Shown here one piece after another: positions 15,083 to 62,863 of a DNA stretch of 64,000 nt (position 1 is the first letter of the stretch; every line of letters begins with the position of its first letter). A program made the position numbers and the translations under genes. This DNA comes from Pelobacter sp. (GTDB lineage: Bacteria; Desulfobacterota; Desulfuromonadia; Geobacterales; Pseudopelobacteraceae), in NCBI GenBank assembly GCA_030824515.1, contig JAVBXN010000019.1, forward strand, positions 1 to 64,000, in the 5' to 3' direction. The notes below the pieces were generated by a model. The model was not told where the DNA came from. It made no database searches and saw only the letters and a program-made list of their open reading frames with translations.

Positions 15083-15104
15083 CCCTAAACCTTTCCAAAC
15101 ACAA

Positions 15105-15127
15105 AAAGAGCCTGAACAAAATCAGGC
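15105..15127 (-). terminator. Intrinsic terminator overlapping the cheB stop codon
   Basis: On the minus strand the stem GCCTGA-TTTTGT-TCAGGC is followed by TCTTTTTGTG. The first arm contains the cheB TGA stop. It would end the chemosensory operon just before the 27-haem cytochrome, or act as an attenuator between them. Confidence 0.7.
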
Positions 15128-37786: not shown

Positions 37787-37791
37787 TCCCC

Positions 37792-38721: not shown

Positions 38722-38737
38722 TGGCACCTCTTGTGCA
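38722..38737 (+). promoter_or_regulatory. Predicted sigma-54 promoter of the cytochrome/giant-protein locus
   Basis: TGGCACCTCTTGTGCA: the -24 GG and -12 GC are exactly spaced and TGGCAC is perfect, with one change in the -12 box (GTGC for TTGC). Transcription would start near 38748, leaving a leader of about 90 bases before the cytochrome ATG at 38840. No duplicated activator palindrome is obvious in 38614-38720. Confidence 0.65.
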
Positions 38738-38839
38738 CAAATGTGCTGTCGAATTAATTAATTAAAACATTTATCAGCGTACAGATCGTGCGGTCGATTT
38801 TGCATAAATTTGCTGGATATGTATGTCAGGAGGGTCTGA

Positions 38840-41800
38840 ATGAGTGTCCGCGGATTTCAGTTAACCATGGTTTCGTCCTTGTTGCTGGCGTCGATTTTTA
38901 TGCCAAATGGCAGAGTTGAAGCAGCGCTTCCGTGCTATGGCTGTCATGGCACGAACACGCCTGCCGATGTCAGACCCGAAGATTCCTCAGAAAGAAATAT
39001 CGCCACGGGCGGTTTTGTGGGCAACCACCGCCGGCACATGCCCGGTCCGGCCAGCACGGCAAACTGCAATATCTGTCATCCCGGCAGCACTGACTACCTG
39101 TCGTCCCACCGGGACGGCCAAATCAAGATCGGATCAAGAGTTAACGCCTCTCCAATACTCACGTCCTACAAAAACAGCACCTCAGCCTTTCCACAGAGCG
39201 CCACACCGGCACCGGGAAGCTGCACTAACGTCAATTGCCACTTCGAAGCAGCCACTCCGTCCTGGGGCAGCAACCCGGCGGCAACCAACTGCGCCACCTG
39301 CCACAGCGCACCACCCAGCGACGGCAGTCACGGCAAGAAACATGGCCAGACCTATGGCAACGGCCCGGAAAGCTGTGCCAAATGTCATCCCAACCATCTG
39401 GCCGAAACGCATACCTTTGCCCATGCCACCAGCGCCGGAAAACGCGGACTGCAGATCCGCTTCGGCGCACCCAACAGCGGCGGCACTTATTCCGGCACTC
39501 CGCTAAAGGTCAGGCTGGGCTACCCGGATTACCTGCCGAGCCAGAATCCCCCTCGCCAGGGCAGTTGCAGCGGCATCTACTGCCACAGCGACGGCCTCGG
39601 CAACCCGCCCAAGGACACCCCGCAGTGGTCAGCCGCGACCACCACCAACTGCGATTCCTGCCACCGCTACCAGGGTGTCGCCTATCTGAACATGACTTCC
39701 AACGGGCACACCAAGCTGGCCGATTACCGCTGGATCAGAAAATATCCCTGCACCTATTGCCACTCGGTTACGATTTCCTCGACCATCCCCTCGCCGGGCA
39801 TGCCGCCGGTTGACAGTTCACTGATAATGGGTCGCTCGGTGAACGGGCTTTTCAGCAGTAGCCGGCACGTAAACGGCGTCAGGGATGTTTCCATGAACCA
39901 GTTCTGGCGCATCGAGGGTGACCGCAAGACATACCCGCAGCCCAGCTACAACTCCGCAACCAAGGTCTGCGATAACGTTTACTGCCACAGCGACGGCACC
40001 ACTGACCCGGAGTCTATCAGGGCCTTCCCCTGGAACCAGCGCGGCACCGAATGCAACAGCTGCCACGGTCACCAGCGCAGTGAAAACTGTATCGACTGCC
40101 ACAACGGCACCCGGGAATTCCTGATCGACGGTAAACAAACCGTACTATCATTACAGACATCCTGGCCGGCCGGCCAGGAATGGATGTCGGCCATGCCGAT
40201 GTTTCCCAACGAGGGGACCAACAAGCCCCGCTCCAATTCGCATCCCAGGCATATGCAGACCAATTTCAGCTGCGCCGAATGCCACTACAACACCATCCTG
40301 GCCGGCGGTGAATGCAAGCTGTGCCACGACGGCAGCCTTGGCAAGATGGGTGAAGCCTCCCACCTCAACCCGGCCTTTCATGTCAACAAGGTCCGGGACG
40401 TAAATTTCAAGCAGGGGGGCAGCTACAACCGCGACCTCAAATCCTGCTCCAACACCAAGTGCCACACCGGTAGCGACCCGCAATGGGGAGCCTCCACCAA
40501 CAGCGCCATCATCTGCCTCTCCTGCCACGGAACCGAGTCGGAAACGGACGTGGATGACTTCGGCAGCGTCAACGAAACCAAGGCCCAGATCAGCCTGCCG
40601 CAGTGGCGCAACACCGGCCACGGTCGCAAACAGTCGCTTTCCGGCAACTACAAATCCGGGAACCCGGCCGCCAACTTCCCCGGCAATCCCTGCTGGTACT
40701 GCCATGACAACAAGGTGCTGCACAACTACAGCGGCAACCCCTTCAGGCTCAAGATCCACCCCCAGATAGTCAAGCGCTATGAGCGTGAATGCGTCTACTG
40801 CCACATGGAGCGCACCGACCTGGAATGCCTCAGCTGCCATAACACGGCCGAGTCGCTGGCGCCACAGATCAGTTCGATCTTTTACAGTATTTCGGCCAGA
40901 TGGCCGAACCGCTCCACCGTCACGCGCCCCAACCACTCGGTGATGTACAACTCCGAAACCAAGTTAGCAACCTCGTGCATCACCTCCGATTGCCACTATG
41001 TCGACCCGGCCAATCCCGCCGCCGACATGAAGATCCACAACAACGGCTCCGTCAAATGGACCTCGCAACAGAAGGAAGATGTCAGGAATCAGTACCAGAT
41101 GATGGGGGTCTGCCTGCAGTGCCACGACGACAACAGCAACGGCAAGTGCAACGGCTGCCACGACGGCACCCTGCCCAAATACCGCCTGGGTTACGATCCG
41201 GGGACCGGTTATATCGTGCCCTCCGTCGCCAAGGCTTCATCGGTGCACTTCGGCTATAAACACTACAAGAAGTATGTGGCGACCAACACCTGGAGCGGTG
41301 GCAAATTCTGCTGGGATTGCCACGATCCACACGGTGACGGCAACATCTACATGGTCCACGACAACGTAGCCACCGAGACCGAAGGCAGGTTCGGCATCCC
41401 CCTTCCGGGCAAGCGCGCCCCGGTCGTCTTCTCCCAGAAACTGACCGGCGAGGATTACGCCAAGAGCATCGGCACCATCAACGGCATCTGCAACGTCTGC
41501 CACTCGATCAACGCAAAGCATTACCGCAGTGACGGCGGCGACGGCCACAACACCAAGTACGTCTGCACCAAGTGCCACGAACACCGCTTTACCGACAGCC
41601 ACGCCGACAGGAAATCCTGCAACACCTGCCACAAGAACAAACCGGTGCCGCGCCACTCCGGTTTCGGGCTGCCGATGGACTGCGTCAAGTGCCATAACGG
41701 CAACGTCGGCGCACGGGTGGACGTAATCGGCCAGTTCATGGGCAACTCGCACCATGTGCAGGGCATTCCGATCAACAACAAGCATTGCTACCAGTGCCAC

Positions 41801-43687
41801 TGGGAATCGACCCCCGAAGGACTGATCAACAACCAGTATCACGAAGGTTTCAATTTCAAGAACTACACCAGCCTCAAGAACGCCAAGGTGGACCTGGTCA
41901 TCTACGGCGCCGGCAATCGGCCGCTGATCTACCGGCTCTACTCATCAACCTCCGGCCGCGCCACCTCATCGCAGTTCACCGCCGCCAATATCAAGAGCAC
42001 AAATATCAACGTGGAAAGAAAGGAAGTCGGCAACGTCACCAATCACTGTCTGAGCTGCCACAGCGACCAGAACAACGACATCAAACCCTTCGACGATTGC
42101 AAAACGCCGCGCCAGTATGCCTGGGACCTGAGCAGCATAGATGCCCGCTATTCGCAAATGGGCACGACCAAATGGGGCAAATATTCAACCGCCAACACCA
42201 ATGTCAAATACAAGGTTACCAAGGCCCTGTCAGCGCACGGGAAAGCAGCCGACAACCAGGGGGGCTGGAATGCCGCCAGCGGCACCGATTCCGGTTTCTC
42301 CGACACCCGTTCCGGCTTCAGCGGCATGAGCAGCGCACGCAAATCGGTGCAGTGCTTCGACTGCCACAACTCGCACGGCTCCAAGGCCGGCGGAGTCACT
42401 TCCAGCTACGCCTCCTACAGCGGCCTCAAGAATGGCGCCAACCTGAAGGAAGTAACTTCCGGCAAGGGGGGCTACCAGGTCAACTACTACGCCAAGGCCA
42501 AGGCCGACGGCCCGGGTGTGGTCAATCCCTACAACGCCGGCGCGGCCCAATGCTTCGATTGCCATCTGACGGCCAACAAAGGAACCCCCGGCACGGAAGG
42601 AACTCCCTGGGGCTACCAGGCCACCTTCAACGCCTCGCAACCGATCAAGGGCTACCGCGACGGCTTCAAGTTCGGCGACAAGAGCAACGCCACATACCAG
42701 TTGGCGCCCGGTTTCAAAACCGGAAAAACCATCACCGGCGGCCACTTCAAGGCATCCTCTCCGCTCAAGAAAGGCGCAATGGATCCGATCGACGGGCTCT
42801 GCACCCCTTGCCACGACCCGCACGGCGTCAGCCCGACGCTGGGAGCTCTCAAGAATTTTGCGGTGCCACTGCTCAAGGACACCTGGTTGTCCTCCCCCTA
42901 CAAAGAGGACTTCCCCTCGCCAACACCTTTCGGCCCCAATGCCAACGCACAGGGCTGGGGCATCGCGCAAGGATCGGGACGCAAGTTCCCGGCGGCCCAG
43001 ACACCCTACAACGCCGCCAATGAACCGCCGGCCAAGTACAACCTGGACCGCAACACGCTGGGCACTACAAGCAGGATCAACCAGGACGAGACCCAGTTTG
43101 CCGGCCTGTGTCTGAAGTGCCATACCAAAAAAGCGATGATGGGCAACTATACCGGCGCCGCCTCCAGCGCCTACAGCCCCAACAAGGCCTCCTGGAAGAG
43201 CGTCGAACGCATCCACGCCTCCACCAAGGGCTGGGGCAGCAACAAGGAGCACTCCTTCAGCTGCTCCAAGTGCCACCAGCCGCACAACTCCGCCCTGCCG
43301 AGGCTGATGCAGACCGACTGCCTGGATTACCAGCATCGCGGTAATGTCAGCGGCGGTGGAACGGCCTGGTCGTCGCTCAAGGCGCTGGCTAATATCAACG
43401 GCGTCGGCTATCGCGACGCGGGCTGCACCAGCTCCACCCGCGAACTGCGCGGTTATCCGGTAGCTTCGATTCTGGGCAAGGGTGCAAGTTACGCATCGGC
43501 GACCTACGATTGGAGCAGCTTCTCTCCGGAAGCGACCATCAGCTGCCACATGAGCAGAACCGATGTCCCCAACTATGACACCCAGATCAAGAACTTCAAA
43601 GTACGCGGGCCGGCCTCCGGACTGCCTTCGGCCTGGCCGGACGGCAACTACTGGAATTCCGTGACGCCCTGGCCATTGAGCAAATAG
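38840..43687 (+). CDS. 33-haem c-type cytochrome (CXXCH and CXXXXCH motifs)
   Basis: 1615 residues with a Sec signal peptide (MVSSLLLASIFMPNGRVEA). I count 33 haem motifs, 28 CXXCH and five CXXXXCH (CTNVNCH, CSGIYCH, CDNVYCH, CSNTKCH, CITSDCH). Four of the CXXXXCH sites are followed closely by a CXXCH, which is the Geobacter-type CxxxxCH/CxxCH unit. Hemes are spread over residues 32-1450 or so. The last 150 residues have none and may be an attachment domain. AGGAGGG precedes the ATG. There is no lipobox, so it is soluble or secreted, probably at the cell surface. It heads a four-gene unit and is followed 42 bases later by the giant mosaic protein. The role is inferred as electron transfer to an extracellular acceptor. 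Confidence 0.94.
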   Translation: MSVRGFQLTMVSSLLLASIFMPNGRVEAALPCYGCHGTNTPADVRPEDSSERNIATGGFVGNHRRHMPGPASTANCNICHPGSTDYLSSHRDGQIKIGSRVNASPILTSYKNSTSAFPQSATPAPGSCTNVNCHFEAATPSWGSNPAATNCATCHSAPPSDGSHGKKHGQTYGNGPESCAKCHPNHLAETHTFAHATSAGKRGLQIRFGAPNSGGTYSGTPLKVRLGYPDYLPSQNPPRQGSCSGIYCHSDGLGNPPKDTPQWSAATTTNCDSCHRYQGVAYLNMTSNGHTKLADYRWIRKYPCTYCHSVTISSTIPSPGMPPVDSSLIMGRSVNGLFSSSRHVNGVRDVSMNQFWRIEGDRKTYPQPSYNSATKVCDNVYCHSDGTTDPESIRAFPWNQRGTECNSCHGHQRSENCIDCHNGTREFLIDGKQTVLSLQTSWPAGQEWMSAMPMFPNEGTNKPRSNSHPRHMQTNFSCAECHYNTILAGGECKLCHDGSLGKMGEASHLNPAFHVNKVRDVNFKQGGSYNRDLKSCSNTKCHTGSDPQWGASTNSAIICLSCHGTESETDVDDFGSVNETKAQISLPQWRNTGHGRKQSLSGNYKSGNPAANFPGNPCWYCHDNKVLHNYSGNPFRLKIHPQIVKRYERECVYCHMERTDLECLSCHNTAESLAPQISSIFYSISARWPNRSTVTRPNHSVMYNSETKLATSCITSDCHYVDPANPAADMKIHNNGSVKWTSQQKEDVRNQYQMMGVCLQCHDDNSNGKCNGCHDGTLPKYRLGYDPGTGYIVPSVAKASSVHFGYKHYKKYVATNTWSGGKFCWDCHDPHGDGNIYMVHDNVATETEGRFGIPLPGKRAPVVFSQKLTGEDYAKSIGTINGICNVCHSINAKHYRSDGGDGHNTKYVCTKCHEHRFTDSHADRKSCNTCHKNKPVPRHSGFGLPMDCVKCHNGNVGARVDVIGQFMGNSHHVQGIPINNKHCYQCHWESTPEGLINNQYHEGFNFKNYTSLKNAKVDLVIYGAGNRPLIYRLYSSTSGRATSSQFTAANIKSTNINVERKEVGNVTNHCLSCHSDQNNDIKPFDDCKTPRQYAWDLSSIDARYSQMGTTKWGKYSTANTNVKYKVTKALSAHGKAADNQGGWNAASGTDSGFSDTRSGFSGMSSARKSVQCFDCHNSHGSKAGGVTSSYASYSGLKNGANLKEVTSGKGGYQVNYYAKAKADGPGVVNPYNAGAAQCFDCHLTANKGTPGTEGTPWGYQATFNASQPIKGYRDGFKFGDKSNATYQLAPGFKTGKTITGGHFKASSPLKKGAMDPIDGLCTPCHDPHGVSPTLGALKNFAVPLLKDTWLSSPYKEDFPSPTPFGPNANAQGWGIAQGSGRKFPAAQTPYNAANEPPAKYNLDRNTLGTTSRINQDETQFAGLCLKCHTKKAMMGNYTGAASSAYSPNKASWKSVERIHASTKGWGSNKEHSFSCSKCHQPHNSALPRLMQTDCLDYQHRGNVSGGGTAWSSLKALANINGVGYRDAGCTSSTRELRGYPVASILGKGASYASATYDWSSFSPEATISCHMSRTDVPNYDTQIKNFKVRGPASGLPSAWPDGNYWNSVTPWPLSK

Positions 43688-43729
43688 GGTATGAATACAA
43701 AACAATTATCCATAACCGGAGTACGCTCT

Positions 43730-46700
43730 ATGCAAGCAGACAGATCGATCAAATACCTGAACCGCCCCATGCCGCGCGCGACCATCCGGATGACAGCTTT
43801 AATCGGAGTCGTATCGCTATGCCTTCTGCTACTCTGCCCGGTATCCTCCACGGCGGCATTCATCAACGGAGGCGACCAGCTCTGGTCCTACCGCGACAAA
43901 CTTGACGGCATTCAGCGCAAGCCGGGCAAGCAGAATCCGGCGGCCTCGGTCACCGATTCCCAGGGCAACACTATTATCACCGGCAGCCAGCTGTTGCCGG
44001 GGAGCAATTTCGAAGAGATCTATACCGTCAAGATCAGCACCGGCGGCAGCGTCGTCTGGCGCGGCGTATACCAGGTTTCCGGCATGAACGCGCGGGCGGC
44101 AGCGGTTGCGGTCGATGCCTCCGACAACGTCTACGTGACCGGCGTAAATGACGGCTCCAACAGCAACGTCCATATCATCCGCTACAACCGGGACCAGGCC
44201 GGCATCGACGCCTCACCGCAATGGCAGCAGACCTTCGACGGAGGCGGCACGGACAAGGCCGCCGCAATCACCATCCATGGCGGCAACGTCTACGTCGGTG
44301 GTTCCTCGCGCTTCGGCGGCAATGAATGCTTCATGGTGCTCTCGCTGAACAAGGAGAGCGGAGCGATCTCGTGGCAGATACCCAATGCCTCCACCGCCAC
44401 CATCGGCAAGGCGGCCGCGCTGGCGGCCGATGTCAACAGCATCGCGGTGACCGGCCAGACCTGGAACGGAGCGGAAAACTACCTGGCAACCATAGCCTAC
44501 AATCCAAATGGGCTGGCAGTGCTCTGGCAGACGCCCCAGCCAGCCGCGGCCGCATTCCAGCGCAACGACTCCGGCCTGCATGTCAGGATCGATTCCATGG
44601 GACACGTGATCGTGGCCGGATCGGTCTACAACGGCCTGAACACGGATATCCAGACAATTAAATACTGCAGCGGCGCGGCGAGTCCCTGCGACGGCAAAAC
44701 GGCCGGCGAGATCCTCTGGCAGCAGACCTATGACGGCGGTTCGGACGACGAACCCAGGGGACTGCAGCTGGAAAGCGGCGCTACCGGCAAAGACGATGTC
44801 TATCTGACCGGGCAGACCCTGGTCAGCGGACGCTTCCATATCCATACCGCCCGCTTGAAATCCGCCGCGGCCATTCCCCAATACGCCTGGAGCCAGATTC
44901 CGGTTTTCAATTCCGGCGGAGACAACACCGACATCCCTACCACGCTGGTTGTCTCAGCGACAGACGATGCGCTGTTCGTGGTCGGTTACAGCGTCAGCGC
45001 GTCATGGAATAGCGATTTCCGCACGGTGAAATACCGCAAGAGCACCGGTGACGAACTTTGGAGCAGGACCTTCCACGGTGTCGCCGACAAGTCTGACCGT
45101 GCCATCGGAGCCGGGCTGGACCTGAGCGGCAACCTGGTGGTTGCCGGCTACGTCGACGAAACCACGCCGCTGGACGGCGGCACTGCTGCCGCTACCGGCG
45201 GCACCAAGGGCACGCTGGTCAACAGCGCCAAAACCTGGAGCCTCAACGAATGGGGCGGTTACTACCTGATGCTGCTGAGCGGCGTCAACAACAAGGATCA
45301 GATGCGCCAGATCCAGTCGAATGATGCCACCACCCTGACATTCCCGGTGCTACTGCCGGACGCCGTGGCCAGCGGAGACAGCTATTACATCTACGACAAG
45401 GATGACTACGATTACCAGGTGGTCAAATACGACAAGGGGATTCTGAACGCGCCGACCAAACTGGTAGCTACGACCGTTTCCGGCAGCAGTGTCAACCTGG
45501 CCTGGCAGGACAATAACGCGGTTACCCCCAAGTTCCGCCTCGAACGCTGTACGGCCGGTTTCGAACACCTGGTGGCCGCGCCCTGCGACTTCGACAACCC
45601 GGCCCAGATCACCGTGGTTCCGGTTGTTGACGGTGCGGTTACCGCCCAGGCCGACGGCCTGACCGCGGACAGGTATTACTATTTCAGGGTACGGGCCTAC
45701 ACCGGCAGTGATTTTGCCACTGCTACCCAGGTGACCTACTCCAGTAATATGGAGCACGCGGTAACCCAGACGGTCTCGATAATTACCCCCGCCGATACCT
45801 ACAGCTACGCCGGCGTCGCCAACAGCGAGGACTATGCCCTGACAATCGCCACCGGACCGATCGACGGCCATCCGGTCGTCAGCGGCAAGAGTCTCTTCAC
45901 GCTGTCCGGCTTCGATTATTACACGATCAAACTGGACAAGGACAACCTGGATAAGATGTGGAGCCAGCGCTACGACGGCCCCGAGAACCAGAGCGACTCG
46001 GCCATGTGCCTGACCGTGGACAAGAACGACCAGATCGTCGTATCGGGCTACTCCTGGCTGTACAACCTGGTTGCCTCCAAGGACATGAACTCGATCTACA
46101 CGATCAAATACAAAACCGGCGCGCTCTCCGCACCGGAAAACGACAGCGATAACTACGAGTGGACCCACCAGTACAACGGCGCCGGAGCGGTGGACGACCG
46201 ACCGGTCGCGATTGCGGCTGCATCCGATTCATCCAACAACATCGCGGTGGTCGGCATGGGCATCCATAATGAAATGGAAATGTCCAACCACGACATCTAC
46301 GTGCTGCATTACCCCCCCGCCGGCCCCGGACCGGAAGGCGCCCGCAACCCGGGCTACTGGGCCGCCTCCGCCATCGACAAGGGCGGGGACGACGAGCCGA
46401 CCTCGGTTGTGATTGACTCCTCGGGGGACGTGATCGTCACCGGTTTCACGATGGACACGACCAGGAGCAGGAAGGATTACGACATCTACACCGCCAGGTT
46501 CGCAGCCGCCACCGGAGCACTGCTCTGGGAACGGATCTACGACAACGGCTACGGCGATGACGAAGCCAACTCGGTCGCCGTGGATATCGACGGCAACGTC
46601 TACGTCGCCGGTTTCAGCACCAATGACCAGGGCAACCGCGACTTCATAACCATCAAATATGACAGGGACGGCAACATCCAGTGGGGAGGACCGAAGATTT

Positions 46701-52700: not shown

Positions 52701-55700
52701 AATCCGGCATGATTCTCGGCCGCTGCCCCGGCAGCGCGCCCTGCCAGACGACCTACAACCTCTTTCCGCTGCTGGCGGCCAGCGCGGTCACCTACAGCGA
52801 CACTTCGGCCTGCGCCGACACTACCTACAATTACCAGGTTTACCCGGCGGTCCATCCGGCCATGCCCTTTGCCAATTCCGGCAGCCAGGGGTGGAAGAGC
52901 CTCTCCCAGCTGACCATCGCCGACTTCAAGCCCAACTTCCTCACCAGGGTGGTGATCACCAAGGGCGCCATGGACATGCAGGATGATTTCCGGGATATCC
53001 GTTTCTTCGACCGCACCACGCTGGCCGAGCTCCCCTACTGGATCCAGAGTGCCGGCGGCACCGGCAGCGCAGCCACCGCTACGGTCTGGTTCAAGACCGG
53101 GGCAAGCCCGACCATCGACATGTATTACAACAATCCGGCGGCCACCAGTTCCAGCAGCAAGGATGCGGTATTCGGCGCCGGTCTGAGCGGCTACTGGCCT
53201 TTCGAGGAGAGCGCCAGGATTGCCGGCACTATCAGTGACGTCAGCGGCTCCGCCAACCACCTGACCATGTCCGGATTCGACACCTTGAACACATACGGTG
53301 TCGTCGCCGGCGGGCGCTACGGCAACACACTCAGCCAGGACGGGATCAACGACTATACCTACAAGGGCGGAATTTTCACCGGCCTGCCGACCGGAAGCAC
53401 ACTGTCGGCCGAAGCCTGGATCTACTCACTGGGCCAGACCTACGACTACAGCGGCATCGTTTCCTGGGGGTCCAGGGGAACAGGCTGCGTCACCCCTTTC
53501 ACCAACTTTGCATCCGTCGCAATGAGCGCCAGCGCCGGCGGCTATCCGCAGGTGCCGACCTGGTGCAATGACTACGTGCCCGGCACCGGTCTGCAGATCC
53601 CCACCAATGCCTGGACCCACTACGCCTTCACGATGAACGGCAGGGATATAAAAGTTTATATCAACGGCGTGGCACAGAGCGGATCGCTTGATATCGCCAA
53701 GGCCGTTCCGAATGTGCTTTCACGTGAGCTGGCCATCGGGGCGCTGGAACTGACCGGCGCCAGCCGGACCTTCAAGGGCAGGATTGACGAAGTGCGCGTC
53801 TATAGCCGGGTACTGAGCGCGGATGACATCGCCGCCCGCTATTCCGCTGTGATACCATCGGTCAGCGTCGGGGCGAAGAGCGACACCGCCACGTACGGGG
53901 CGGCCTCCACCATCAACCTGGTGATGCCGCATCCGGCCAATATCGTTTCAAACGGCGAATTCGACGGAACGCTCACAACCAAATGGTACGCCTGGCCCGA
54001 CTGGAACAATGTCACCCAGGACTCGAATGTCTTCCATAGCGGCGGCAAGTCAATAAAACTCTCCAAGAGCCTGGCCGCCAGCAGTGCGGTCACGGTTTAC
54101 CAGAGCTACACCAACTTCATTCCCGGGGGCAGGTACATCCTGACCGGCTCGATCAACGCCTCGCTCGGCAGCACCGGCGAGTCCTGGTGCCGCCTGGCAA
54201 ACAGCGCCGTTTCTGTCAATTACTACAGTCCGCAGATCTCGATCACCGCCTCCGACGCCACCAAAAACAATCAGGGCTGGTTCCGGCTTTCAACTCCGAT
54301 CACACTGCCGATGACCGCGCCCGGCGGCGGCAGCATCACCAGCCTCAACATCGAGTGCGGCATCCGGACCACGACAGCCGGCCCGCAGACAGCCTACTTC
54401 GACGCGGTGCAGCTTGTGCCCGACCCGCCGCTGGCACTGACCGCAACGCCCGTATCCGAAACCGAAATCGACCTGGTCTGGAACGACCTGTTCGGCGATG
54501 AAACCGGTTTCAACCTCTACCGCTGCCAGGGAGCGGCATGCAATCCGGTCACGGTTAACAGGCAGTTCGGATCCGGAATCGTGAAGTATCGCGACTCGGG
54601 CCTGACACCGGGAGAAAGTTACAGTTACAAGGTAACCGCCTACAAGACTGCCACCTGCCCCTGGGAGAGCAGCGCCAGCGACATCAAGACCGCTGTGACG
54701 GCACTGGTGGCGCCGATCCTCAGAAGCGTGGCACCGTTGACTTCTACCACCATGAAGGTCAACTGGAGCGACACCACCTCGACCGAAAACGGGTATACCC
54801 TGGAACGCTGCGACGGGGAAAGCTGCAAGATTGACACGCCGGTCCCGGTATACAACCCGATAGCGACGGATATCCAGACGGTGCATGACATCGAAAGCTC
54901 GCTCAAGGCCAGGTACACGTTCAACGGCAACCAGAGCGACAGCAGCGGCAACGGCCTGAACCTGACCAGCAGTTCAGCTCCCACCTATGCCGACAACGGG
55001 ATACTGCTGCACACCATGTGCGGTATGACCAGCGCCAACACCGACATCCTCAACACCGACGAACATACCATTGACTTTGAATTCAAGCTCAACGCCGACC
55101 CAGGTTCAACAAACATCTTCTATTACAGGGCCGGCGGCAGCAGGTACAATCCGCTGATATCCGGTAATTCAACCGGACGCCTCACGATCACCTATGATCC
55201 CAGTTTCTACCTAACCATTGGTTCAAACGGCGTCAACGGCACACCTTTCTCCTACAACAACTGGTACCGTCTGCGTGTTGTCAAATCCGGCGGCAAGCTG
55301 AATGTATTCATCGACGACAGACAGATCGTCACCAACCAGACCGTGCCAAGCTCGCAGGTGGTCGGCGGCGCGACGTATCCGCTCAACTTCGGCAGCTGCT
55401 GGAACCCCAACACCACCCTGCGGAATTTCAGCATCTACAACAGCGGAGTTGATGCCGGACTGGTTTCCTATCTCGACGACAAGGTCTGTCCCAGCACCTA
55501 TTACAAATACCGGGTAACACCCAACCGCGCCACAGCCTGGGGACAGACCATGACCAGCAATGCGCTGGGCGCCACCACACCGATCTTCATGTCCCCCAAG
55601 CTGCCGGTCACCGCCAGCGAGGGGGGCGACACGCAGATCAACCTGGGCTGGAACGCCAGCGACCAGAAAGACCAGACAGGTTTCATACTGAAGGAATGTC

Positions 55701-56278
55701 CGGATGGCTCGGCCTGTTCCTATCCATCAGTCCCCAATGTCACCAGCTACAGCCGTAGCGGCCTGTCTCCCGAAACCAGGTACTGCTACGCGGTGGCCTC
55801 CTACAAAACCGCCGACCACTGCAACGGCGGCGCCGGCGTGACCTCCGCCTATGTGGACGCCGACAGGTGCATCACCACCTACAGCGCACGCGCCGGAAAC
55901 CTGACCGCCAAGGCTCTCAATTCCAACAAGATCCTGCTGGAATGGGATGATATGTCCGGAGACGAGGACAAGTTCCTGATCCAGAAGAAAATCTGGAACG
56001 GTCAGTGGGTAGTCCGGGAGGTCTCGGCCGCCACGACCGGAAAAGGCGCCAAGCATTCATTTATTGACACAATCGGGATTCAGCCGTTAAAGAAATATAC
56101 CTACCGTGTGGTTACCCTAAAGGGAACTGTGGAATCGCCGCCCAGTAATGAGGCGATGGTTACCTACACCGATCCGGACAGCGGCGCAACGATCGAAACC
56201 ACGCCGGCGTTCAAGGGCGGAATGGACAAGGCCACCTGCATCTGCACCACGGTGGACGGCAAAGAAGTCTGCAAGTGA
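43730..56278 (+). CDS. Giant exported mosaic protein (beta-propeller, FN3, DUF2341, LamG-like, CBM-like)
   Basis: 4182 residues from the ATG at 43730, which has GGAG eight bases upstream; the frame is open to 43691 without a good ribosome site. A signal segment (LIGVVSLCLLLLCPVSSTAA) is followed by SBBP-type propeller repeats (43.86-45.44 kb; AAVAVDASDNVYVTG), FN3, a second propeller (45.78-47.18 kb), two FN3 and a CBM-like jelly roll (47.77-48.2). Next come two FN3, DUF2341 plus LamG-like (48.75-49.74), CBM-like (49.9-50.3) and FN3. Then come a DUF2341/lectin-like block (50.6-51.5), four FN3, DUF2341 plus LamG-like (52.9-53.85), CBM-like (53.9-54.4) and FN3. The end is an FN3 holding a third LamG-like domain, two FN3 and a Cys-rich tail. 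No haem sites or catalytic motif are seen. I infer a surface scaffold or adhesin working with the flanking cytochromes. Confidence 0.9.
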   Translation: MQADRSIKYLNRPMPRATIRMTALIGVVSLCLLLLCPVSSTAAFINGGDQLWSYRDKLDGIQRKPGKQNPAASVTDSQGNTIITGSQLLPGSNFEEIYTVKISTGGSVVWRGVYQVSGMNARAAAVAVDASDNVYVTGVNDGSNSNVHIIRYNRDQAGIDASPQWQQTFDGGGTDKAAAITIHGGNVYVGGSSRFGGNECFMVLSLNKESGAISWQIPNASTATIGKAAALAADVNSIAVTGQTWNGAENYLATIAYNPNGLAVLWQTPQPAAAAFQRNDSGLHVRIDSMGHVIVAGSVYNGLNTDIQTIKYCSGAASPCDGKTAGEILWQQTYDGGSDDEPRGLQLESGATGKDDVYLTGQTLVSGRFHIHTARLKSAAAIPQYAWSQIPVFNSGGDNTDIPTTLVVSATDDALFVVGYSVSASWNSDFRTVKYRKSTGDELWSRTFHGVADKSDRAIGAGLDLSGNLVVAGYVDETTPLDGGTAAATGGTKGTLVNSAKTWSLNEWGGYYLMLLSGVNNKDQMRQIQSNDATTLTFPVLLPDAVASGDSYYIYDKDDYDYQVVKYDKGILNAPTKLVATTVSGSSVNLAWQDNNAVTPKFRLERCTAGFEHLVAAPCDFDNPAQITVVPVVDGAVTAQADGLTADRYYYFRVRAYTGSDFATATQVTYSSNMEHAVTQTVSIITPADTYSYAGVANSEDYALTIATGPIDGHPVVSGKSLFTLSGFDYYTIKLDKDNLDKMWSQRYDGPENQSDSAMCLTVDKNDQIVVSGYSWLYNLVASKDMNSIYTIKYKTGALSAPENDSDNYEWTHQYNGAGAVDDRPVAIAAASDSSNNIAVVGMGIHNEMEMSNHDIYVLHYPPAGPGPEGARNPGYWAASAIDKGGDDEPTSVVIDSSGDVIVTGFTMDTTRSRKDYDIYTARFAAATGALLWERIYDNGYGDDEANSVAVDIDGNVYVAGFSTNDQGNRDFITIKYDRDGNIQWGGPKIYDGPAHGDDEAVAVKVDQVDNHILVSGNQLTDTGNNDIHAIRYAPDGAVEWTKTVLREHADEDMYDMTMDVSGNAYITATTTNSYSDPTINKDILTVKLDWQGAMAPNATKHGNLSELDKPFGITVNYQGDVFIAGISQNEMANADYIVLKIAGDMVQSPYPISYANPTYNSVALNWTDSSRAETGYQVARRDGACPLEAPVWGDGEIITTAPAHLAANTVTFTDSGLTSRATYCYGIRSFNGTGYSRWANKTVIMATPPVPTVTANPADSTRITVNWTPQNGGQQTGFELWRCADSGPSACTDFSVLSASIAGTATSYDDQAVCAGTIYRYQIKAKGSAWASDFSATVGAIPPAVDNLAIDSGFEAPNPMTAGQGVGWTYVGGAIATDITFDAAEKHGGAQSLNINAVATASISGIKQYLLFATGGKYQVSAWFKTTAATGKVTCDLLDGASGSFTNSGTTSAWEQRSLTITTSTTPYPAGSRIRCYVAAGSQANIDDMQAIPLYDLTATRYSESEIDLAWIDSAFDESGYQVERCNDALCTSPQTVATVGPNVSSYRDSRLAPDTSYWYRIRPYKTAPLSCNGGWNGGYSNTANALTTNNPPVLSASSPNTTRVNLSWSDTTGTENMFRIERCLAASCSMTEIASLLTNATGYSDTNACSNTVYNYQIRAVDQPLSLGNGGAWTKRVKLDFGTTFSANKLTRVSINQLTGMDATFKDIRFYDATARQELSHWFESTAAGSATAWLKTGNSNDIYIYFGNNAAVSTGSLGNVFGSGLVGFWPFNETAELRSGTTADVSGNLQHATLNYFYTYAGYGVVAGGRYKNGLNLGAHAYSSASVADTTASLFDITDQITVELWYQYQKSPDWGRLASKMTTDGGQPWEMYGLWLDNTADAVATNPQQRVFFGIGSQDSPPAGAWPYYQSASGPQLTPGQWYHIVGRYDSATGRMSVFVNGIEYGVATHATKPKIIANNAAFYIGNRGTGNYMKGMLDEVRLYNRYLSDKEIATRYAATLPAVTTPVDGSVETDLGGYVFTTNWNGPYSKPTATSPAPAPTPIATQRPVNLITDPDFDNGATSWPTAVGTLTGTSFDTATTYSGTKSLKLTATGAVLGVLQNVSVVPNSEYTLSAYIKTALTAGAVQCDMYATGPPLLDSAGIISSGVSEWSYKSETVTIPAGITSVSVRCFANSGPQGQAWLDMVQLTPSIPVSAIAATRKSEEQVDVSWNFPTGRDQTGFKIERCMDSSCASSTVLTALNAAVATATAGSYKYSDKNLAINSDYWYRVRAYKTEDPSCNGGKGFWETTSTAITGPVNTSFNASVDLSGISSVTTSCEDLRITDTSGVAQKFYLENSVPASACNNSKTKLIVKVASTPTTGKTLYLYHGNLNAERIDDSGLNVFNFFDDFNGTAIDESKWIVAPNTGFTVSGGYLHGTNTSGRLASVNTSFYGSGYNLQAKVKSTLRPAGGFYPIGFSLYDNHYRSFGLIDYPSAHHYSNDNAGWSANLTTPPSGSSRDDSMIYSVVLKSSTVISPAIFDVDRNTTYWAPGDVANSNHSAAWNITLGRRYDATQTGQAYLADWDWVRIRKYVANAPVAGSPGAATPGTYSLSGETGSWRFLRQVAVTNTSGAVQTDFQINLETDTTSMATDRNLVTWTASTDTETGFTLERCKDSVANCNAGFVAEKTITGLPPKNSIGAQVSYLDRDLQLDSPQAPVNYCYRVKALKSGGWLTAVTPGETPWSNIACMSTKLQAPPSNLAASATGTAINLSWTDNSTGENGFTLERCQDIAGDMPCSFSAGNNMSISLPPNDERLSTTATYTDPNLCAGTYRYRISVYKNNPDNAGTSWTLGPVYQNGDSVSTELPPVPQNVVAARVSENQVRVTWKDMTADETGFEVWRCIGSTCTDFSRIPVTVAAAGGTGSTVTYIDSHYIVPGTTYRYKVRAYVIATCTVYSDLSADNSATAPNGPDYATASTVAPAAMSAVATNSTQADLAWTDSAVSKSGMILGRCPGSAPCQTTYNLFPLLAASAVTYSDTSACADTTYNYQVYPAVHPAMPFANSGSQGWKSLSQLTIADFKPNFLTRVVITKGAMDMQDDFRDIRFFDRTTLAELPYWIQSAGGTGSAATATVWFKTGASPTIDMYYNNPAATSSSSKDAVFGAGLSGYWPFEESARIAGTISDVSGSANHLTMSGFDTLNTYGVVAGGRYGNTLSQDGINDYTYKGGIFTGLPTGSTLSAEAWIYSLGQTYDYSGIVSWGSRGTGCVTPFTNFASVAMSASAGGYPQVPTWCNDYVPGTGLQIPTNAWTHYAFTMNGRDIKVYINGVAQSGSLDIAKAVPNVLSRELAIGALELTGASRTFKGRIDEVRVYSRVLSADDIAARYSAVIPSVSVGAKSDTATYGAASTINLVMPHPANIVSNGEFDGTLTTKWYAWPDWNNVTQDSNVFHSGGKSIKLSKSLAASSAVTVYQSYTNFIPGGRYILTGSINASLGSTGESWCRLANSAVSVNYYSPQISITASDATKNNQGWFRLSTPITLPMTAPGGGSITSLNIECGIRTTTAGPQTAYFDAVQLVPDPPLALTATPVSETEIDLVWNDLFGDETGFNLYRCQGAACNPVTVNRQFGSGIVKYRDSGLTPGESYSYKVTAYKTATCPWESSASDIKTAVTALVAPILRSVAPLTSTTMKVNWSDTTSTENGYTLERCDGESCKIDTPVPVYNPIATDIQTVHDIESSLKARYTFNGNQSDSSGNGLNLTSSSAPTYADNGILLHTMCGMTSANTDILNTDEHTIDFEFKLNADPGSTNIFYYRAGGSRYNPLISGNSTGRLTITYDPSFYLTIGSNGVNGTPFSYNNWYRLRVVKSGGKLNVFIDDRQIVTNQTVPSSQVVGGATYPLNFGSCWNPNTTLRNFSIYNSGVDAGLVSYLDDKVCPSTYYKYRVTPNRATAWGQTMTSNALGATTPIFMSPKLPVTASEGGDTQINLGWNASDQKDQTGFILKECPDGSACSYPSVPNVTSYSRSGLSPETRYCYAVASYKTADHCNGGAGVTSAYVDADRCITTYSARAGNLTAKALNSNKILLEWDDMSGDEDKFLIQKKIWNGQWVVREVSAATTGKGAKHSFIDTIGIQPLKKYTYRVVTLKGTVESPPSNEAMVTYTDPDSGATIETTPAFKGGMDKATCICTTVDGKEVCK

Positions 56279-56358
56279 ACAACGTGCAATAAAACCGCTG
56301 AACGAAGTTGCCGGCTGAATGATTGTCTCTGATCGTCCGCGCCGGCAGAGGGGCAACT

Positions 56359-58773
56359 ATGAACATCAAAACGGGGATGAAGAGATTCATCCCCTGCTTT
56401 GTTATAATTATCGCAGCCATGCTCAGACCCGGCAACTGTCCGAACGCTGCGGTCTCCGGCGAGATGACGGCGCCCAAACCGGAGGAGGCAGCCTTTGCCG
56501 GATCGAAGAGCTGCCGCGAGTGTCACGAACGCTTCTATAAACTCTGGTCCGGTTCGTTTCACGGATTGGCAATGCAGCCCTACTACAGGGGCTTTGGTGA
56601 AGGCAAGATACAGCCGCAGCAGAAAGCGATCAGGATCGGCGAATACAGCTACCGGGCCGATCTCCAGCTGGACGCGGTGGTCGAAAAAGGCCCGGAAGGC
56701 GACCACAGCTATCCGATTGCGCATGTTATGGGAGGCAAGTACGTTTACTACTTCCTGACAGCCATGGACAAGGGCAGGCTGCAGACACTGCCTGTGGCAT
56801 ACGACTTGCGCAAGAACGAGTGGTTCGATACCGCCCTGTCCGCCGTCAGGCACATACCCGGCCGCCGCGAGACAAGCGCCCCCAACAGCTGGAAAGATGT
56901 TTCCTACACCTTTAACAGCGCCTGCAGGGACTGCCATGTCAGCCAGCGGGCCAGCTCTTTCAATCGCGACACCGACAGCTTCAGCACCTTCTGGAAAGAA
57001 CCGGGCATAAACTGCGAAACCTGCCACGGGCCTTCGGAGGAGCACAACCGGGTCCTTCGGGCTCTTCCCAAGGGTGAGAAACCGCTTGACTACAAGCTGG
57101 TCCGCACCAAGCTGTTCACGCCGGCGCAGCACAACGACTCCTGCAATTCCTGCCATGCCAAGGCGGCCCACCTCACCGAGGGTTACAAAGCTCCGGAGCG
57201 CTTCTTCGATCACTTCGATCTGGCAACCCTGGAAGACAGTGATTATTACCCCGACGGGCGCGATCTTGGCGAAAACTACACCATGACCTCCTGGATGCTG
57301 AGCCCCTGCGCGAAACAGGGACAGCTGCACTGCGTCACCTGCCATACCTCCAGCGGGCGTTACCGGTTTAGCAAGCCGGAGGACGCCAACAAGGTCTGCC
57401 TCCCCTGCCATGAGAAGCATGTCGGCAACCCGTTTCCACACACCCGCCACAAGACCGGCAGCGCCGGGTCGAACTGTGTATCCTGCCACATGCCGACCAC
57501 GGAATTCGCCCGTATGAAGCGCAGCGACCATTCGATGCTGCCCCCCATGCCCTCGGCAACGATCCGCTTCAACTCGCCCAATGCCTGCAATGGCTGCCAT
57601 GGCGACAAGAGCGCCGAATGGGCCGACAAAACCGTACGTTCCTGGCACGGCCGGGATTACCAGGCTCCCTACCTGAAGCGCGCAGCGCTGATCGACCGGG
57701 CCCGCAAAAAAGATTGGAGAGGCCTGGATGAGATTCTCGCCTATATCGCAGACAAGTCCAGGGACGAGATCTTCTCGGCCTCCATGATCAGGTTGCTGGA
57801 GGATGCGGACTTCAAGCGGACCACCCCCACGCTGCTGTCGGCCCTGAAAGACCCGTCGCCGCTGGTCAGGGGCGCGGCGGCCGACATCCTGGGGCGAAAC
57901 CCGGCGCCCGAGGTGCTGCAGGCTCTGACCCTGGCCACCGGTGACGAATACCGGCTGGTACGGGTGATGGCAGCCGGCTCCCTGTCGGCCTATCCCCAGT
58001 ACGAGCCGCAAAAGGAATCTGCCGAGCAGGTCGAAAAAGCCACCGCTGAATACCTGGAGGTGCTGGCGTCGCGGCCGGTCAGCTGGATAGCCAGCTACAA
58101 TCTGGGTAACTATTACCTGAACCGTGCCCAACCGCAAAAAGCGCTGGATGAATATCAACGCGCGCTGAAGCTGTCCGGCTCCGCCGTTATGCCGCGGGTG
58201 AACTCGGCCATAGCACAGGTTCAACTGGGCCGGAAGGACGAAGCCGAGGAATCTCTGACACAGGCGGTGGCGCTCTCACCGGAACAGGCCGTTGCCCATT
58301 ACAACTTGGCAATGCTGGCCGGGGAGCGCGGTGACCTGGCCAAGGCGGAAAAGCACCTCAGGTTGTCTTTCAGCATCGACCCTGGCATGTCCGACGCCGC
58401 TTTCCGGCTCTGCCTGCTGATGTCGGGCGAACGGATCAACGAGGGCATAGCCTGGTGTCGGAAAGCGGCCGAGACCAACCCCAATGAGCCTGGTTACGCA
58501 TATACCATGGCCGTTTCCCAGAGCCGCTCCGGAGATTTCGAGGGGGCGATCGGCACGCTTTCCGCGCTGATTGACCGCATCCCGTCCTTTGCCCAGGCAT
58601 ATCTTCTGCAGGGTGAACTGTACCAGATGTCCGGCAACGATGAATTGGCACTACTTGTGTATCACCGCATGACGGAAATGTTCGCAATCGGCGAGCAGTA
58701 TCGAAAGATTGCCCGCGAACGCATCGAGGCGTTGCGACCTTCGGGGACACCCGGCCCGGGCCCGATCCAATAA
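56359..58773 (+). CDS. Octaheme c-type cytochrome fused to HEAT-like and TPR repeats
   Basis: 804 residues from the ATG at 56359, preceded by AGAGGGG; the longer frame to 56323 lacks a ribosome site. The signal segment is IPCFVIIIAAMLRPGNCPNA. Eight CXXCH motifs occur within about 56.5-57.6 kb (CRECH, CRDCH, CETCH, CNSCH, CVTCH, CLPCH, CVSCH, CNGCH), spaced as in the cytochrome c554 / octaheme reductase family. HEAT-like helices follow (57.7-58.0 kb; VRGAAADILGRNPAPEVLQAL), then five or six TPR units (58.05-58.7 kb; ASYNLGNYYLNRAQPQKALDEY). The combination suggests a periplasmic or surface redox protein docking to a partner. The gap to the giant gene is 80 bases and to the next gene 36 bases. 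Substrate unknown. Confidence 0.92.
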   Translation: MNIKTGMKRFIPCFVIIIAAMLRPGNCPNAAVSGEMTAPKPEEAAFAGSKSCRECHERFYKLWSGSFHGLAMQPYYRGFGEGKIQPQQKAIRIGEYSYRADLQLDAVVEKGPEGDHSYPIAHVMGGKYVYYFLTAMDKGRLQTLPVAYDLRKNEWFDTALSAVRHIPGRRETSAPNSWKDVSYTFNSACRDCHVSQRASSFNRDTDSFSTFWKEPGINCETCHGPSEEHNRVLRALPKGEKPLDYKLVRTKLFTPAQHNDSCNSCHAKAAHLTEGYKAPERFFDHFDLATLEDSDYYPDGRDLGENYTMTSWMLSPCAKQGQLHCVTCHTSSGRYRFSKPEDANKVCLPCHEKHVGNPFPHTRHKTGSAGSNCVSCHMPTTEFARMKRSDHSMLPPMPSATIRFNSPNACNGCHGDKSAEWADKTVRSWHGRDYQAPYLKRAALIDRARKKDWRGLDEILAYIADKSRDEIFSASMIRLLEDADFKRTTPTLLSALKDPSPLVRGAAADILGRNPAPEVLQALTLATGDEYRLVRVMAAGSLSAYPQYEPQKESAEQVEKATAEYLEVLASRPVSWIASYNLGNYYLNRAQPQKALDEYQRALKLSGSAVMPRVNSAIAQVQLGRKDEAEESLTQAVALSPEQAVAHYNLAMLAGERGDLAKAEKHLRLSFSIDPGMSDAAFRLCLLMSGERINEGIAWCRKAAETNPNEPGYAYTMAVSQSRSGDFEGAIGTLSALIDRIPSFAQAYLLQGELYQMSGNDELALLVYHRMTEMFAIGEQYRKIARERIEALRPSGTPGPGPIQ

Positions 58774-58809
58774 AAATCATTTTATCATCCGTCAAGGAAA
58801 GGAAACAAA

Positions 58810-61599
58810 TTGATTCAGTTGACAAAACCCGCAACAAGACGGCTGCCGGTGGCACTGTTGGCCTTGATCCTGTTTATACTGGCTGTTTCCCTCCCGGCCC
58901 ATGCAGCTGATGTGATTATCGAAGGACGGGTGCTGACTGAAGCCGGCCCTCTGGCCAATGCATCAGTCTCCGCCTACCGCAGCTACGCTGACCTGCAGGA
59001 CGGCTCCGGACCGGTTGCCTTTGCTACCAGCAACAACGACGGACTGTACCGGCTGAATCTGCCGCCGGGCTCCTACTTCTTCACCGCCAACGGTGAAAGT
59101 GACGGCCGCAGATTCCATGCCTACCATGGCAGCAACCCGCTCACGGTAGCCAACGAGACCTTCTGGCTCGGCCTGCTGGCGACACCCCGTGACTTGCCGC
59201 CGGCCTATACAGATGGGCCGACCAGCCTGGAGGGGATCGTCACCTACAAGGGCAAACCGCTGTCAGGCGCCTATCTGGCACTTTACAAACCGGACAGCAA
59301 GAGCTTCAAGGGTTTGGGGGTCAGGACCGAATCGATCGGAGCCGACGGCAGGTTCAGGCTGAACCTGCAGCCCGGTTCCTACGTGGTGACCGCCAGGAAC
59401 ATCGAGAACGGCAAGAGCAACCGCCCGCTCCAGCAGGGCGATCTTTACTGCTACTTTTCCGGCAACCCGGTCGAAGTCAAACCGGATCGGAGGGCCCGGA
59501 TCGAGATGTCCTGCTACCCGAAAGGCAACCGGGACAACTTCGTCGCGACCAGGAAGATCAAATCCGACGTTCTCAACACCTATTCCGAACAACAGGCCTC
59601 CTCTAAATCAGGCATACGCGGAATCGTCACCGACCAGACCGGACAGCCGGTCGCCGGAATGAACGTACTGGCCTACCGCCTGACAACCCCGGTATTCATG
59701 ATGTACCATGTCTATCACGGCAGCGAACATTCGTCGCTGACCGACAAGCAGGGCAGATTCTTCATCCCGCTGGATTCGGACGGCGACTACGGACTTGTGG
59801 CGCGCGACACGCTGGGGGACGGCCCGCACCGCGGCGAGCTTTACGGACTTTACCAGGGAAATGTGCGCCACGCAGTAAGTCTGAAGCAGGGTCAAACCGT
59901 GGAGAACGTGTCCATCATCGTCGGCAGGGTCATGGATGACAGCGGGCAGTCCCCCGCCGAGGCGGCGCCGCAGGTCGTGGTCGGCACCACGGACGGCAAC
60001 CCGGTTGTGCTGAGCGATACGGTCATCACCCGGGACACGGTCTGGCAGGGAGAGATCATCATCCAGGGGGTGGTAGCGGTCAAGCGCGGAACCACTCTGC
60101 TGATCCGGCCGGGAACTACCGTCAGGTTCCGCAAGACGGACCGGGACAACAACGACGTGGGCGACGGGGAGATACTGGTTGAAGGGCGCCTGATCGCAAG
60201 GGGAACCCCGGAGAACAGAATCGTCTTCACCTCGGCCGAGGACAAACCGGCGGCCGGCGACTGGTCTTACCTGCAGTTCCTGGCTTCAAACAGGGGCAAC
60301 ATCATCGAGCACTGCCAGTTTGAATACGCCTTTGCGGGGGTGATGATCCATTATGCCGACGTGAAGATCCGAGATACGCTCTTCAGGAACAATAACCGGG
60401 GATTGCACTACAACACCGCCGACCTCGACGTCGATCACAGCACGTTCGTCAACAACCGCATCGGCATTAGATTCATGCGCATGGAAGGCAATGTGCGAAT
60501 AACCAACAACCATATCACCCGGAACGATATCGGCGTGCTTTTCGTGCGCCAGCACGTCAATGCGGTCAATTTCGAACAACTTAACCGCGGACAGGATATC
60601 CCAGCCTATCAGGGAAATAACATTCACGCCAACCGCAATTACAATTTTTCGCTGGGAGAGGAGCAGGAACGGGACATAAAGGTGTCGGGCAACTGGTGGG
60701 GAACCCCGTCATCAAGCGCCATTGCAGAACTGATGTACGACCGGAGCAAGAATCCCACGGTCAGCCGGATACAGTTCGAACCTTTTCTCGAAACCCCGGT
60801 GACAGGCGCGGGCGTACGGGGACTTTCCCCCGAGTTCATCTTCAAAAGCCCGGAAAAGAACGATTCGGGCGGCGACGAGCCGCCACAGGCCGGCGTACTT
60901 TCCGGACGCTTCCTCATGGCCGACGACAGGCCGCTTTCCGGCGCGCTGCTGTACCTGTACAACCTGAAGAGCGGCCCGCTCCCCTCTCTGGACCGCTACT
61001 GGCGCGTGCCAAACCATAGCGCCGAGATCGGCGCCGATGGGCGTTTCAGCATCCAGGCGCCGCCCGGCTTATACAGCATCGGCGCGATCAAACGCTCTAA
61101 CGGCCTGTATATCGGCCCACCGGAACTTGACGACCTGTTCATGCTTTACCTGGATGAAACCGGCCAGCCCAGGGCCTTCAGCCTGAAACCGGGAGCACTG
61201 CTCAATCTGGGCGATATCAGGGAACCCGCTCTCTCCTCCCGGAAAAAGGATCCATCGGAAGCGGCCACCTCGATTGAAGGAGTTATTACCGACCTCCAGG
61301 GAAAACCGCTGGAAGGCGTGCTGGTCTTTGCGTTCACCAGGCCGACTGTTGTCGGCAAACCGCTCTTCGTCTCCCAGCCCAGCGATGCCAGGGGGCATTT
61401 CAGACTGGCCCTCGCCGAAGGCGGCACTTACTACCTCAAGGCCCGCAGCAACCTGGGTGGAGGGCCACCCCAGACCGGGCTGATTATCGACGGCAACAAG
61501 CTGGAACCGCTGGTCAAGGTTTCGGTCAGCACCGGCGAGACCAGCGGCGGAGTCGTCCTCAAGACCAAGACCTTTCCGGGACGCGGGCGCAAGAAGTAA
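58810..61599 (+). CDS. Exported carboxypeptidase-regulatory-like and beta-helix protein
   Basis: 929 residues starting at TTG (58810) behind AAGGAAAGGA. Sec signal: LLALILFILAVSLPAHA. Three transthyretin-like CarboxypepD_reg domains (SLEGIVTYKGKPLSGAYLAL; GIRGIVTDQTGQPVAGMNVL and an N-terminal one) are followed by a right-handed parallel beta-helix of pectate-lyase/NosD type (about residues 400-660; RNNNRGLHYN, NRIGIRFM, NITNNH-like rungs and the closing SGNWWGTP). Two more regulatory-like domains end the chain (GVLSGRFLMADDRPLSGALL; SIEGVITDLQGKPLEGVLVF). No haem motif and no catalytic residues I can name. It looks like an extracellular binding or structural partner, possibly for a polysaccharide. 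Last gene of the likely operon. Confidence 0.88.
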   Translation: MIQLTKPATRRLPVALLALILFILAVSLPAHAADVIIEGRVLTEAGPLANASVSAYRSYADLQDGSGPVAFATSNNDGLYRLNLPPGSYFFTANGESDGRRFHAYHGSNPLTVANETFWLGLLATPRDLPPAYTDGPTSLEGIVTYKGKPLSGAYLALYKPDSKSFKGLGVRTESIGADGRFRLNLQPGSYVVTARNIENGKSNRPLQQGDLYCYFSGNPVEVKPDRRARIEMSCYPKGNRDNFVATRKIKSDVLNTYSEQQASSKSGIRGIVTDQTGQPVAGMNVLAYRLTTPVFMMYHVYHGSEHSSLTDKQGRFFIPLDSDGDYGLVARDTLGDGPHRGELYGLYQGNVRHAVSLKQGQTVENVSIIVGRVMDDSGQSPAEAAPQVVVGTTDGNPVVLSDTVITRDTVWQGEIIIQGVVAVKRGTTLLIRPGTTVRFRKTDRDNNDVGDGEILVEGRLIARGTPENRIVFTSAEDKPAAGDWSYLQFLASNRGNIIEHCQFEYAFAGVMIHYADVKIRDTLFRNNNRGLHYNTADLDVDHSTFVNNRIGIRFMRMEGNVRITNNHITRNDIGVLFVRQHVNAVNFEQLNRGQDIPAYQGNNIHANRNYNFSLGEEQERDIKVSGNWWGTPSSSAIAELMYDRSKNPTVSRIQFEPFLETPVTGAGVRGLSPEFIFKSPEKNDSGGDEPPQAGVLSGRFLMADDRPLSGALLYLYNLKSGPLPSLDRYWRVPNHSAEIGADGRFSIQAPPGLYSIGAIKRSNGLYIGPPELDDLFMLYLDETGQPRAFSLKPGALLNLGDIREPALSSRKKDPSEAATSIEGVITDLQGKPLEGVLVFAFTRPTVVGKPLFVSQPSDARGHFRLALAEGGTYYLKARSNLGGGPPQTGLIIDGNKLEPLVKVSVSTGETSGGVVLKTKTFPGRGRKK

Positions 61600-61851
61600 A
61601 CTATAACCGGACAATTTGTAAGCAGAGAATCAGACTCAACATGAGGAGGTGTGTTTCCAAGATAATTTCAGGTGTTTTCCACATGGTTATATGTTTATGG
61701 ACTCAACTGTGTTGCGTTCATAGCTGATATCTGTTAGAAGTGCAGGCTCGGTATTTAGTAATATTCAATGATATTTTATACATGATGGCATTGGGTAGTG
61801 AGGGCGGTTATCTCTTGCGAACCATTCAATCTATTACTTAACGGAGTCGGC

Positions 61852-62457: not shown

Positions 62458-62863
62458 TTTATCCCAGGCCCTGCCAATAAATCCATTTCACTGCACATTT
62501 CTTTAATAATACTACTTAAGTTCTAGCCAACCAGCGATTTCTCCCATGGCGCCCCTGTCTTTTTACAAACAAATTATACCGTTATTTCGGATAGTTATAA
62601 AACCAGCCAGGTTATTTAATACTTTTCAGATGCTGAAAACAGGTCCTGATTATCAAACTTACGTTGTAGTTCGTTTTCCGAAAGAATTAGCCTGTTGACC
62701 GATTGTTAGTCGGTTTCCAACCTGTTACAACTGCTCTGCGTCGAAAAAATAATATGCCGACCGCCAGACGGAATTATGAGTATTCGGCGCAGCACCACTC
62801 TCCGCATATTGTTTTGTACTTGGTCGTCCAACTAAACGTCATTAAACCCAAGGAGGAATGAAA
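62458..62863 (+). other. Intergenic region upstream of small exported protein
   Basis: About 400 AT-rich bases without coding character. I looked for sigma-54 boxes, riboswitch cores (including the c-di-GMP type common in Geobacter) and palindromic operators and found none convincing. A small stem ACCGA / TCGGT sits at 62698-62713. The promoter of the following gene must lie here. Confidence 0.5.

Follow-up and report, generated by a model that had tools for sequence, protein, structure and literature searches.

The locus and its genes

We analyzed a window of 64,000 nucleotides from a genome of 4.65 Mb. Four genes for large exported proteins, which we call P1 to P4, follow one another head to tail at 38840-61599, all on the + strand, as a preliminary description of the same DNA had stated. 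The features of the locus are:

38722..38736, +: sigma-54-like promoter TGGCACctcttGTGC, 118 bases 5' of the P1 start, with 9 of 10 consensus bases
38840..43687, +: P1, predicted secreted giant c-type cytochrome of 1615 amino acids (28 CXXCH and 5 CX4CH motifs; TIGR01904)
43691..56278, +: P2, predicted secreted giant scaffold of 4195 amino acids (alternative start at 43730)
43865..45436, +: first eight-bladed beta-propeller of P2, residues ~59-582 (AlphaFold2 pLDDT 87.3; Z 31-37)
45449..45709, +: FN3 domain between the propellers of P2, residues 587-673 (Pfam fn3)
45770..47167, +: second propeller of P2, residues ~694-1159 (Z 30-32 to Sqt1, Sif2 and Scone-E)
47186..56275, +: stalk and cassettes of P2, with FN3 repeats, three DUF2341 domains, LamG/concanavalin-type domains and CBM_4_9 (Pfam)
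56359..58773, +: P3, octahaem cytochrome with HEAT and TPR repeats (frame open from 56323; 8 CXXCH)
58810..61599, +: P4, CarboxypepD_reg repeats and a right-handed beta helix (frame open from 58774)
61798..62457, +: LuxR/CsgD-like regulator, a neighbour of the operon that is kept in the sister genome

Judged by eye, the N-terminus of each of the four proteins resembles a signal peptide. P1 and P3 together carry 41 haem motifs (28 + 8 CXXCH and 5 CX4CH), which is the total given in the preliminary description. The intergenic gaps that it gave (42, 80 and 36 bases) hold if the genes start at 43730, 56359 and 58810; earlier possible starts shrink the gaps to 3, 44 and 0-36 bases.

The nearest relative of the window is the MAG Geobacteraceae bacterium GWC2_55_20 (the sister genome), whose P1 is 95% identical. 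The proposed sigma-54 promoter is supported: the matching positions of TGGCACctcttGTGC are unchanged in the sister genome, and sites that score at least 9/10 lie upstream of 5 of 57 P1 homologues (a count that includes two sister sequences), versus 0.2 expected from shuffled sequences. Terminator-like sites between 43500 and 62800 are at background levels (21 versus 19.6 expected). Between the window and the sister genome, dN/dS is 0.07-0.15 for every one of the four genes, and by this measure P1, P2, P3 and P4 are all under purifying selection.

GEMM elements sit ahead of some Geobacter FN3 genes. We dropped the idea of a riboswitch ahead of P1 because an Rfam scan of the upstream region matched only a tRNA. 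The neighbouring genes that we tested belong to the NlpC/P60, DUF1015, Sir2 and LuxR families, and a small exported protein at 62858-63211 matched no family. The LuxR/CsgD-like gene just past the operon (61798-62457) is 94% identical in the sister genome and may control the operon. Elsewhere in the window, a separate cytochrome frame at 12923-15121 (- strand) has 27 CXXCH motifs and resembles known fused nine-module c7 cytochromes.

P1 is a giant cytochrome with invariant haem sites

P1 scores 98.7 bits against TIGR01904, which is above the cut-off of 27, so it is a member of the known family of giant CxxxxCH/CxxCH cytochromes. (It also scores 54 bits against PF09698, where the cut-off is 21.7.) The giants of this family from Geobacter, such as the OmcN, OmcG and OmcH group, have a similar haem density and the same mixture of CX4CH and CXXCH motifs. 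Giant cytochromes of Geotalea have been listed under the names OmcN, OmcG and OmcH, with the naming by best hit only (PMC9961858). What distinguishes the P1 subfamily from other CxxxxCH/CxxCH giants is an invariant WN..TPW tail and a constant pairing with P2.

We found 15 full-length homologues, which are 50-58% identical to P1. Among the 16 aligned sequences, 26 of the 28 CXXCH motifs of P1 and all 5 of its CX4CH motifs are present in every one, and in this alignment the conservation of the haem sites is far beyond chance. The CXXCH site at residue 492 is retained in 15 of the 16. At residue 417, two sequences have CXXCH and the other 14 have CX4CH, and this swap speaks for CX4CH as a genuine site of haem attachment. 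The C-terminal motif W....WN..TPW is invariant or nearly so. The same holds for a lone cysteine (Cys-1494, window 43319-43321) and for a lone Cys-His at 1569-1570 (window 43544-43549); these residues could form a disulfide, or they could be a haem site whose spacing is very long. Two homologues, L133 (G051:C34) and L119, have 42 and 46 CXXCH motifs, which implies that the length of the haem chain varies within the family.

A search of the PDB with a P1 profile gave no solved chain at E = 0.01, including the filament cytochromes of the OmcS/OmcE/OmcZ type. AlphaFold2 did not yield a usable model for residues 815-1615 of P1 (pLDDT 43.6).

P2 combines a propeller head with a long stalk

An AlphaFold2 model of residues 55-1165 of P2, built with 39 sequences, has a mean pLDDT of 87.3. 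With VIA-align, residues 59-582 and 694-1159 match the eight-bladed propellers of Fbw7, Tako8, BamB and Sqt1 with Z scores of 30-37, and the rmsd to solved propellers is mostly 2-3 Å. This confident model predicts that the head of P2 consists of two eight-bladed propellers on either side of an FN3 domain. At this pLDDT and these Z scores, the head has a propeller fold as in SBBP or delta-60 type proteins, and Pfam's SBBP model scores 19.5 bits on P2, slightly below its cut-off of 20.5.

The rest of P2 is a series of FN3, LamG, DUF2341 and CBM_4_9 domains. Adhesive and sugar-binding domains are among them. Homologues of P2, which we searched for with its first 1800 amino acids, are about 2000 to 4500 amino acids long, and Geobacter sp. 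L1geo has one open frame of 5682 amino acids.

P1 and P2 are found together across phyla

We used the P1 alignment to search 84,980 species genomes and obtained 63 loci. In 46 of them, P1 was good and was followed by no less than 1.5 kb of sequence. In all 46 of these, P2 begins 0-351 bp downstream of P1, and the two genes often overlap (gap of -7 to -43 bases). Because these contigs were selected by P1 patterns, the lack of P1-less P2 among them is by design. The independent test of the pairing comes instead from loci that were anchored on P2: in 58 related genomes, P1 lies upstream of P2 in 22 of 22 strong cases.

The distance matrices of P1 and P2 are correlated (Mantel r = 0.82; 0 of 2000 permutations). 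Some genomes have three P1-P2 pairs, and their copies are strongly divergent. In several copies, the nearest relative is the same for P1 as for P2 (examples are L055 with L107 and L061 with L094), and the exact nearest neighbour agrees for P1 and P2 in 14 of 34 pairs. These sequence comparisons show that the trees of P1 and P2 agree and that the members of a pair are co-inherited.

The pair is found in Desulfuromonadia, in Desulfobulbaceae MAGs, and in many Nitrospirae MAGs. Named bacteria with the pair include Geobacter sp. OR-1, Geotalea toluenoxydans and Geothermobacter hydrogeniphilus. The groups of Geobacter sp. OR-1 and Geothermobacter include known metal reducers, and Geotalea does as well (PMC9961858). 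Within the window's class, a search for P2 at E = 1e-80 was positive in 27 of 277 species genomes. The sampled genomes of Geobacter sensu stricto, the genus that contains the usual laboratory model, have cytochromes that are only partly similar to P1, and no strong match to P2. We found no published description of the P1-P2 pairing in papers that are available without a subscription.

P3 and P4 are optional

Of 56 distinct loci, 18 encode a P4-type protein beside the pair, and some of these are from Nitrospirae. The P4 of the window is a fusion, as its two parts are separate adjacent genes elsewhere. P3 is from a family that is widespread in the phylum (matches at E = 1e-25 in 53 of 395 genomes) and is usually encoded elsewhere in the genome. 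We found a P3 homologue after P2 only in the window, in the sister genome, and in Geobacter sp. L1geo, in a count where many loci end before the end of P2. In L1geo, the gene order is P4N-P4C-P1-P2-P3-P4-like (L095, L166), with an overlap of 10 bases between the end of P2 and P3 (L166). All four types are therefore combined in two genera of the family, one of them that of the window. In the sister genome they are split over two contigs, and most of the readable P1-P2 loci lack the full set.

The preliminary description had proposed the four genes as one system and had suggested a check for their conserved co-occurrence. P1 and P2 do co-occur (46/46 and 22/22), and P4 is frequent (18/56), but P3 homologues, which lie elsewhere in all but three genomes, speak against a four-gene operon as a general system. 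To judge from the arrangement of these genes, the conserved core is the P1-P2 pair rather than the four-gene set, and P3 and P4 are optional to it.

P4-like beta-helix genes also cluster with genes for a ResB half and for ArsP- or NicO-like permeases (L080, L081, L083, L166). Some of these clusters add a small OpuAC-like binding protein, and other multihaem cytochromes adjoin them. They are possibly a cytochrome maturation kit.

Could P2 be a helper for the folding or export of P1? Its propellers might grip P1 during export, while the haems are being loaded, much as a chaperone would. The strict one-to-one pairing and the co-inheritance of P1 and P2 would fit with this. So would the genes for a ResB half and for NicO or ArsP permeases that adjoin P4-like genes elsewhere, and so would the many matches of P2's propellers to BamB, the propeller of the outer-membrane assembly machine, although this fold is common. 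However, P2 proteins are 2000-5700 amino acids long, and their variable LamG, CBM_4_9 and DUF2341 cassettes resemble binding modules and not chaperones. Overall, we think that a helper role is unlikely.

History of the site

In the sister genome, the operon is interrupted by an assembly gap within P1-P2. A second contig has the C-terminal part of P2, P3, P4 and the LuxR gene, all 93-94% identical to the window. Other genomes from the window's genus differ. Two of them (G058 and G011) have other genes directly after DUF1015-Sir2 and lack P1-P4 (L156, L157). A third (G005) has a fused P4, 69% identical, after DUF1015-Sir2, and lacks P1-P3 (L079). These arrangements fit either loss in G005 or stepwise gain, and it is possible that P1-P3 were inserted recently ahead of an older P4.

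A comparison of window 36545-38613 with L156, L157, L079 and L176 shows that in several genomes the DUF1015 gene adjoins either a giant cytochrome gene or P4, and that in others it adjoins neither. The border is also seen in G041, from genus g3. The DUF1015 border is possibly a recurrent insertion site.

Comparison with known systems

The preliminary description noted that the omcS locus of Geobacter places a large cytochrome next to a smaller one. Such a pair does exist (GSU2495 and GSU2494; PMC13194489, PMC12977616), and homologues of the two have 26 and 16 haems, respectively (PMC9961858). The osc cluster (GSU2493-GSU2504) thus resembles the window in that a giant cytochrome adjoins a smaller multihaem cytochrome at a locus for surface electron transfer, and the window's locus could be another osc (OmcS companion) locus or a porin-cytochrome locus. 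However, osc also has a hexahaem filament protein, a peptidyl-prolyl isomerase and porins, and we recognised no OmcS-like hexahaem gene, isomerase or porin in or beside the window's locus. Conversely, the window has a propeller/FN3/LamG giant, and the consulted portions of the cited literature mention none for osc. Two genomes from the genus Geobacter have no match to the haem domain of P3 at E = 1e-25 and no strong match to P2. Near P1 matches in a genome that we took to be Geotalea daltonii (L174, L175), we found other giant cytochromes and no osc cluster. That the window's locus is simply another osc or porin-cytochrome locus is very improbable.

More broadly, no outer-membrane beta-barrel family was found among P1-P4 or the tested neighbours, so the locus does not encode a complete porin-cytochrome conduit of the Pcc, Mtr or Oet type. 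The OetABI conduit with OetF resembles the window in that FN3 domains are part of a cassette for extracellular electron transfer, and contact of Oet with a conductive matrix has been proposed (PMC10553843). In Oet, though, FN3 is inside the cytochrome OetF and a porin conduit is present, while in the window, FN3 is on a separate haem-free giant. For the multicopper oxidase OmpB, it was proposed that FN3 anchors this redox protein on Fe(III) oxide (work cited in PMC5566968); OmpB is from a different enzyme class and has no giant cytochrome partner. Soil metatranscriptomes also tie FN3 to electron transfer (PMC6199725). Finally, the high-molecular-weight cytochromes of Desulfuromonas acetexigens have up to 86 haem motifs, are likewise giant and of an extracellular type, and are expressed during electrode or mineral respiration (PMC12133095). 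We set them beside P1 by their description, and the consulted sections of that source mention no scaffold partner, unlike for P1.

A proposed role for P1 and P2

We propose that P1 conducts electrons outside the cell through its many haems and that P2 is a scaffold that holds it and binds polymers or minerals, with P4 assisting and P3 as a lineage-specific addition (probability of roughly 0.55). P1 would be exported and loaded with about 33 haems, which would give a long haem chain, and P2 would be exported together with it. The two propellers of P2 may dock or stabilise P1. The FN3/LamG/CBM part of P2 would adhere to minerals, to cells nearby or to the polysaccharide of the matrix, and in this way would keep the conductor in place on the cell surface. 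P4-type proteins could be further matrix or assembly parts. P3, the octahaem TPR cytochrome, would have joined the operon in the window's lineage, and it probably exchanges electrons with P1.

We infer the surface location of P1 and P2 from their apparent signal peptides. It is plausible that P1 and the giant P2 form a surface complex, as had been suggested; their contact, the substrate, and the direction of electron flow are also what we infer. Since no gene for an outer-membrane porin or a periplasmic carrier was recognised in the locus, it does not include an electron path across the membrane.

This lack of a porin partner would also fit with a pair that functions mainly in adhesion or biofilms, with P1 as a store of charge (a capacitor) in the matrix instead of a route to an outside acceptor. 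The sugar-binding and FN3 domains of P2, and the several P1-P2 copies in some genomes, are in keeping with this idea. On the other hand, all of the haem ligands are kept across phyla, although this is compatible with storage. We consider a storage role to be improbable, much like a helper role.

A broader form of the conductor proposal is that P1-P2 represents a distinct class of conductor, in which a single polypeptide with 30-46 haems runs along an adhesive scaffold that is fixed to matrix, mineral or partner cells, instead of a filament of small cytochromes. The two genes of this class would have moved together between Desulfobacterota-type bacteria and Nitrospirae, and would be missing from the sampled Geobacter sensu stricto. 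This broader claim is quite speculative.

According to recent work, cytochromes of Geobacter evolve quickly, and many of them occur in a single genome (PMC12977616). The P1-P2 pair is the opposite, with invariant haem ligands and a strict gene order across phyla, and this makes it an unusually stable starting point for work on extracellular electron transfer beyond the usual model strain. P1's cytochrome family was known, and what is apparently new is its constant pairing with P2. Because it is a gene pair that can be tested in culturable Geotalea and in Geobacter sp. OR-1, it offers a way to learn how cytochromes anchor to surfaces. Overall, our results suggest a conserved and apparently undescribed means by which cells of iron-reducing and related bacteria are wired to their environment.
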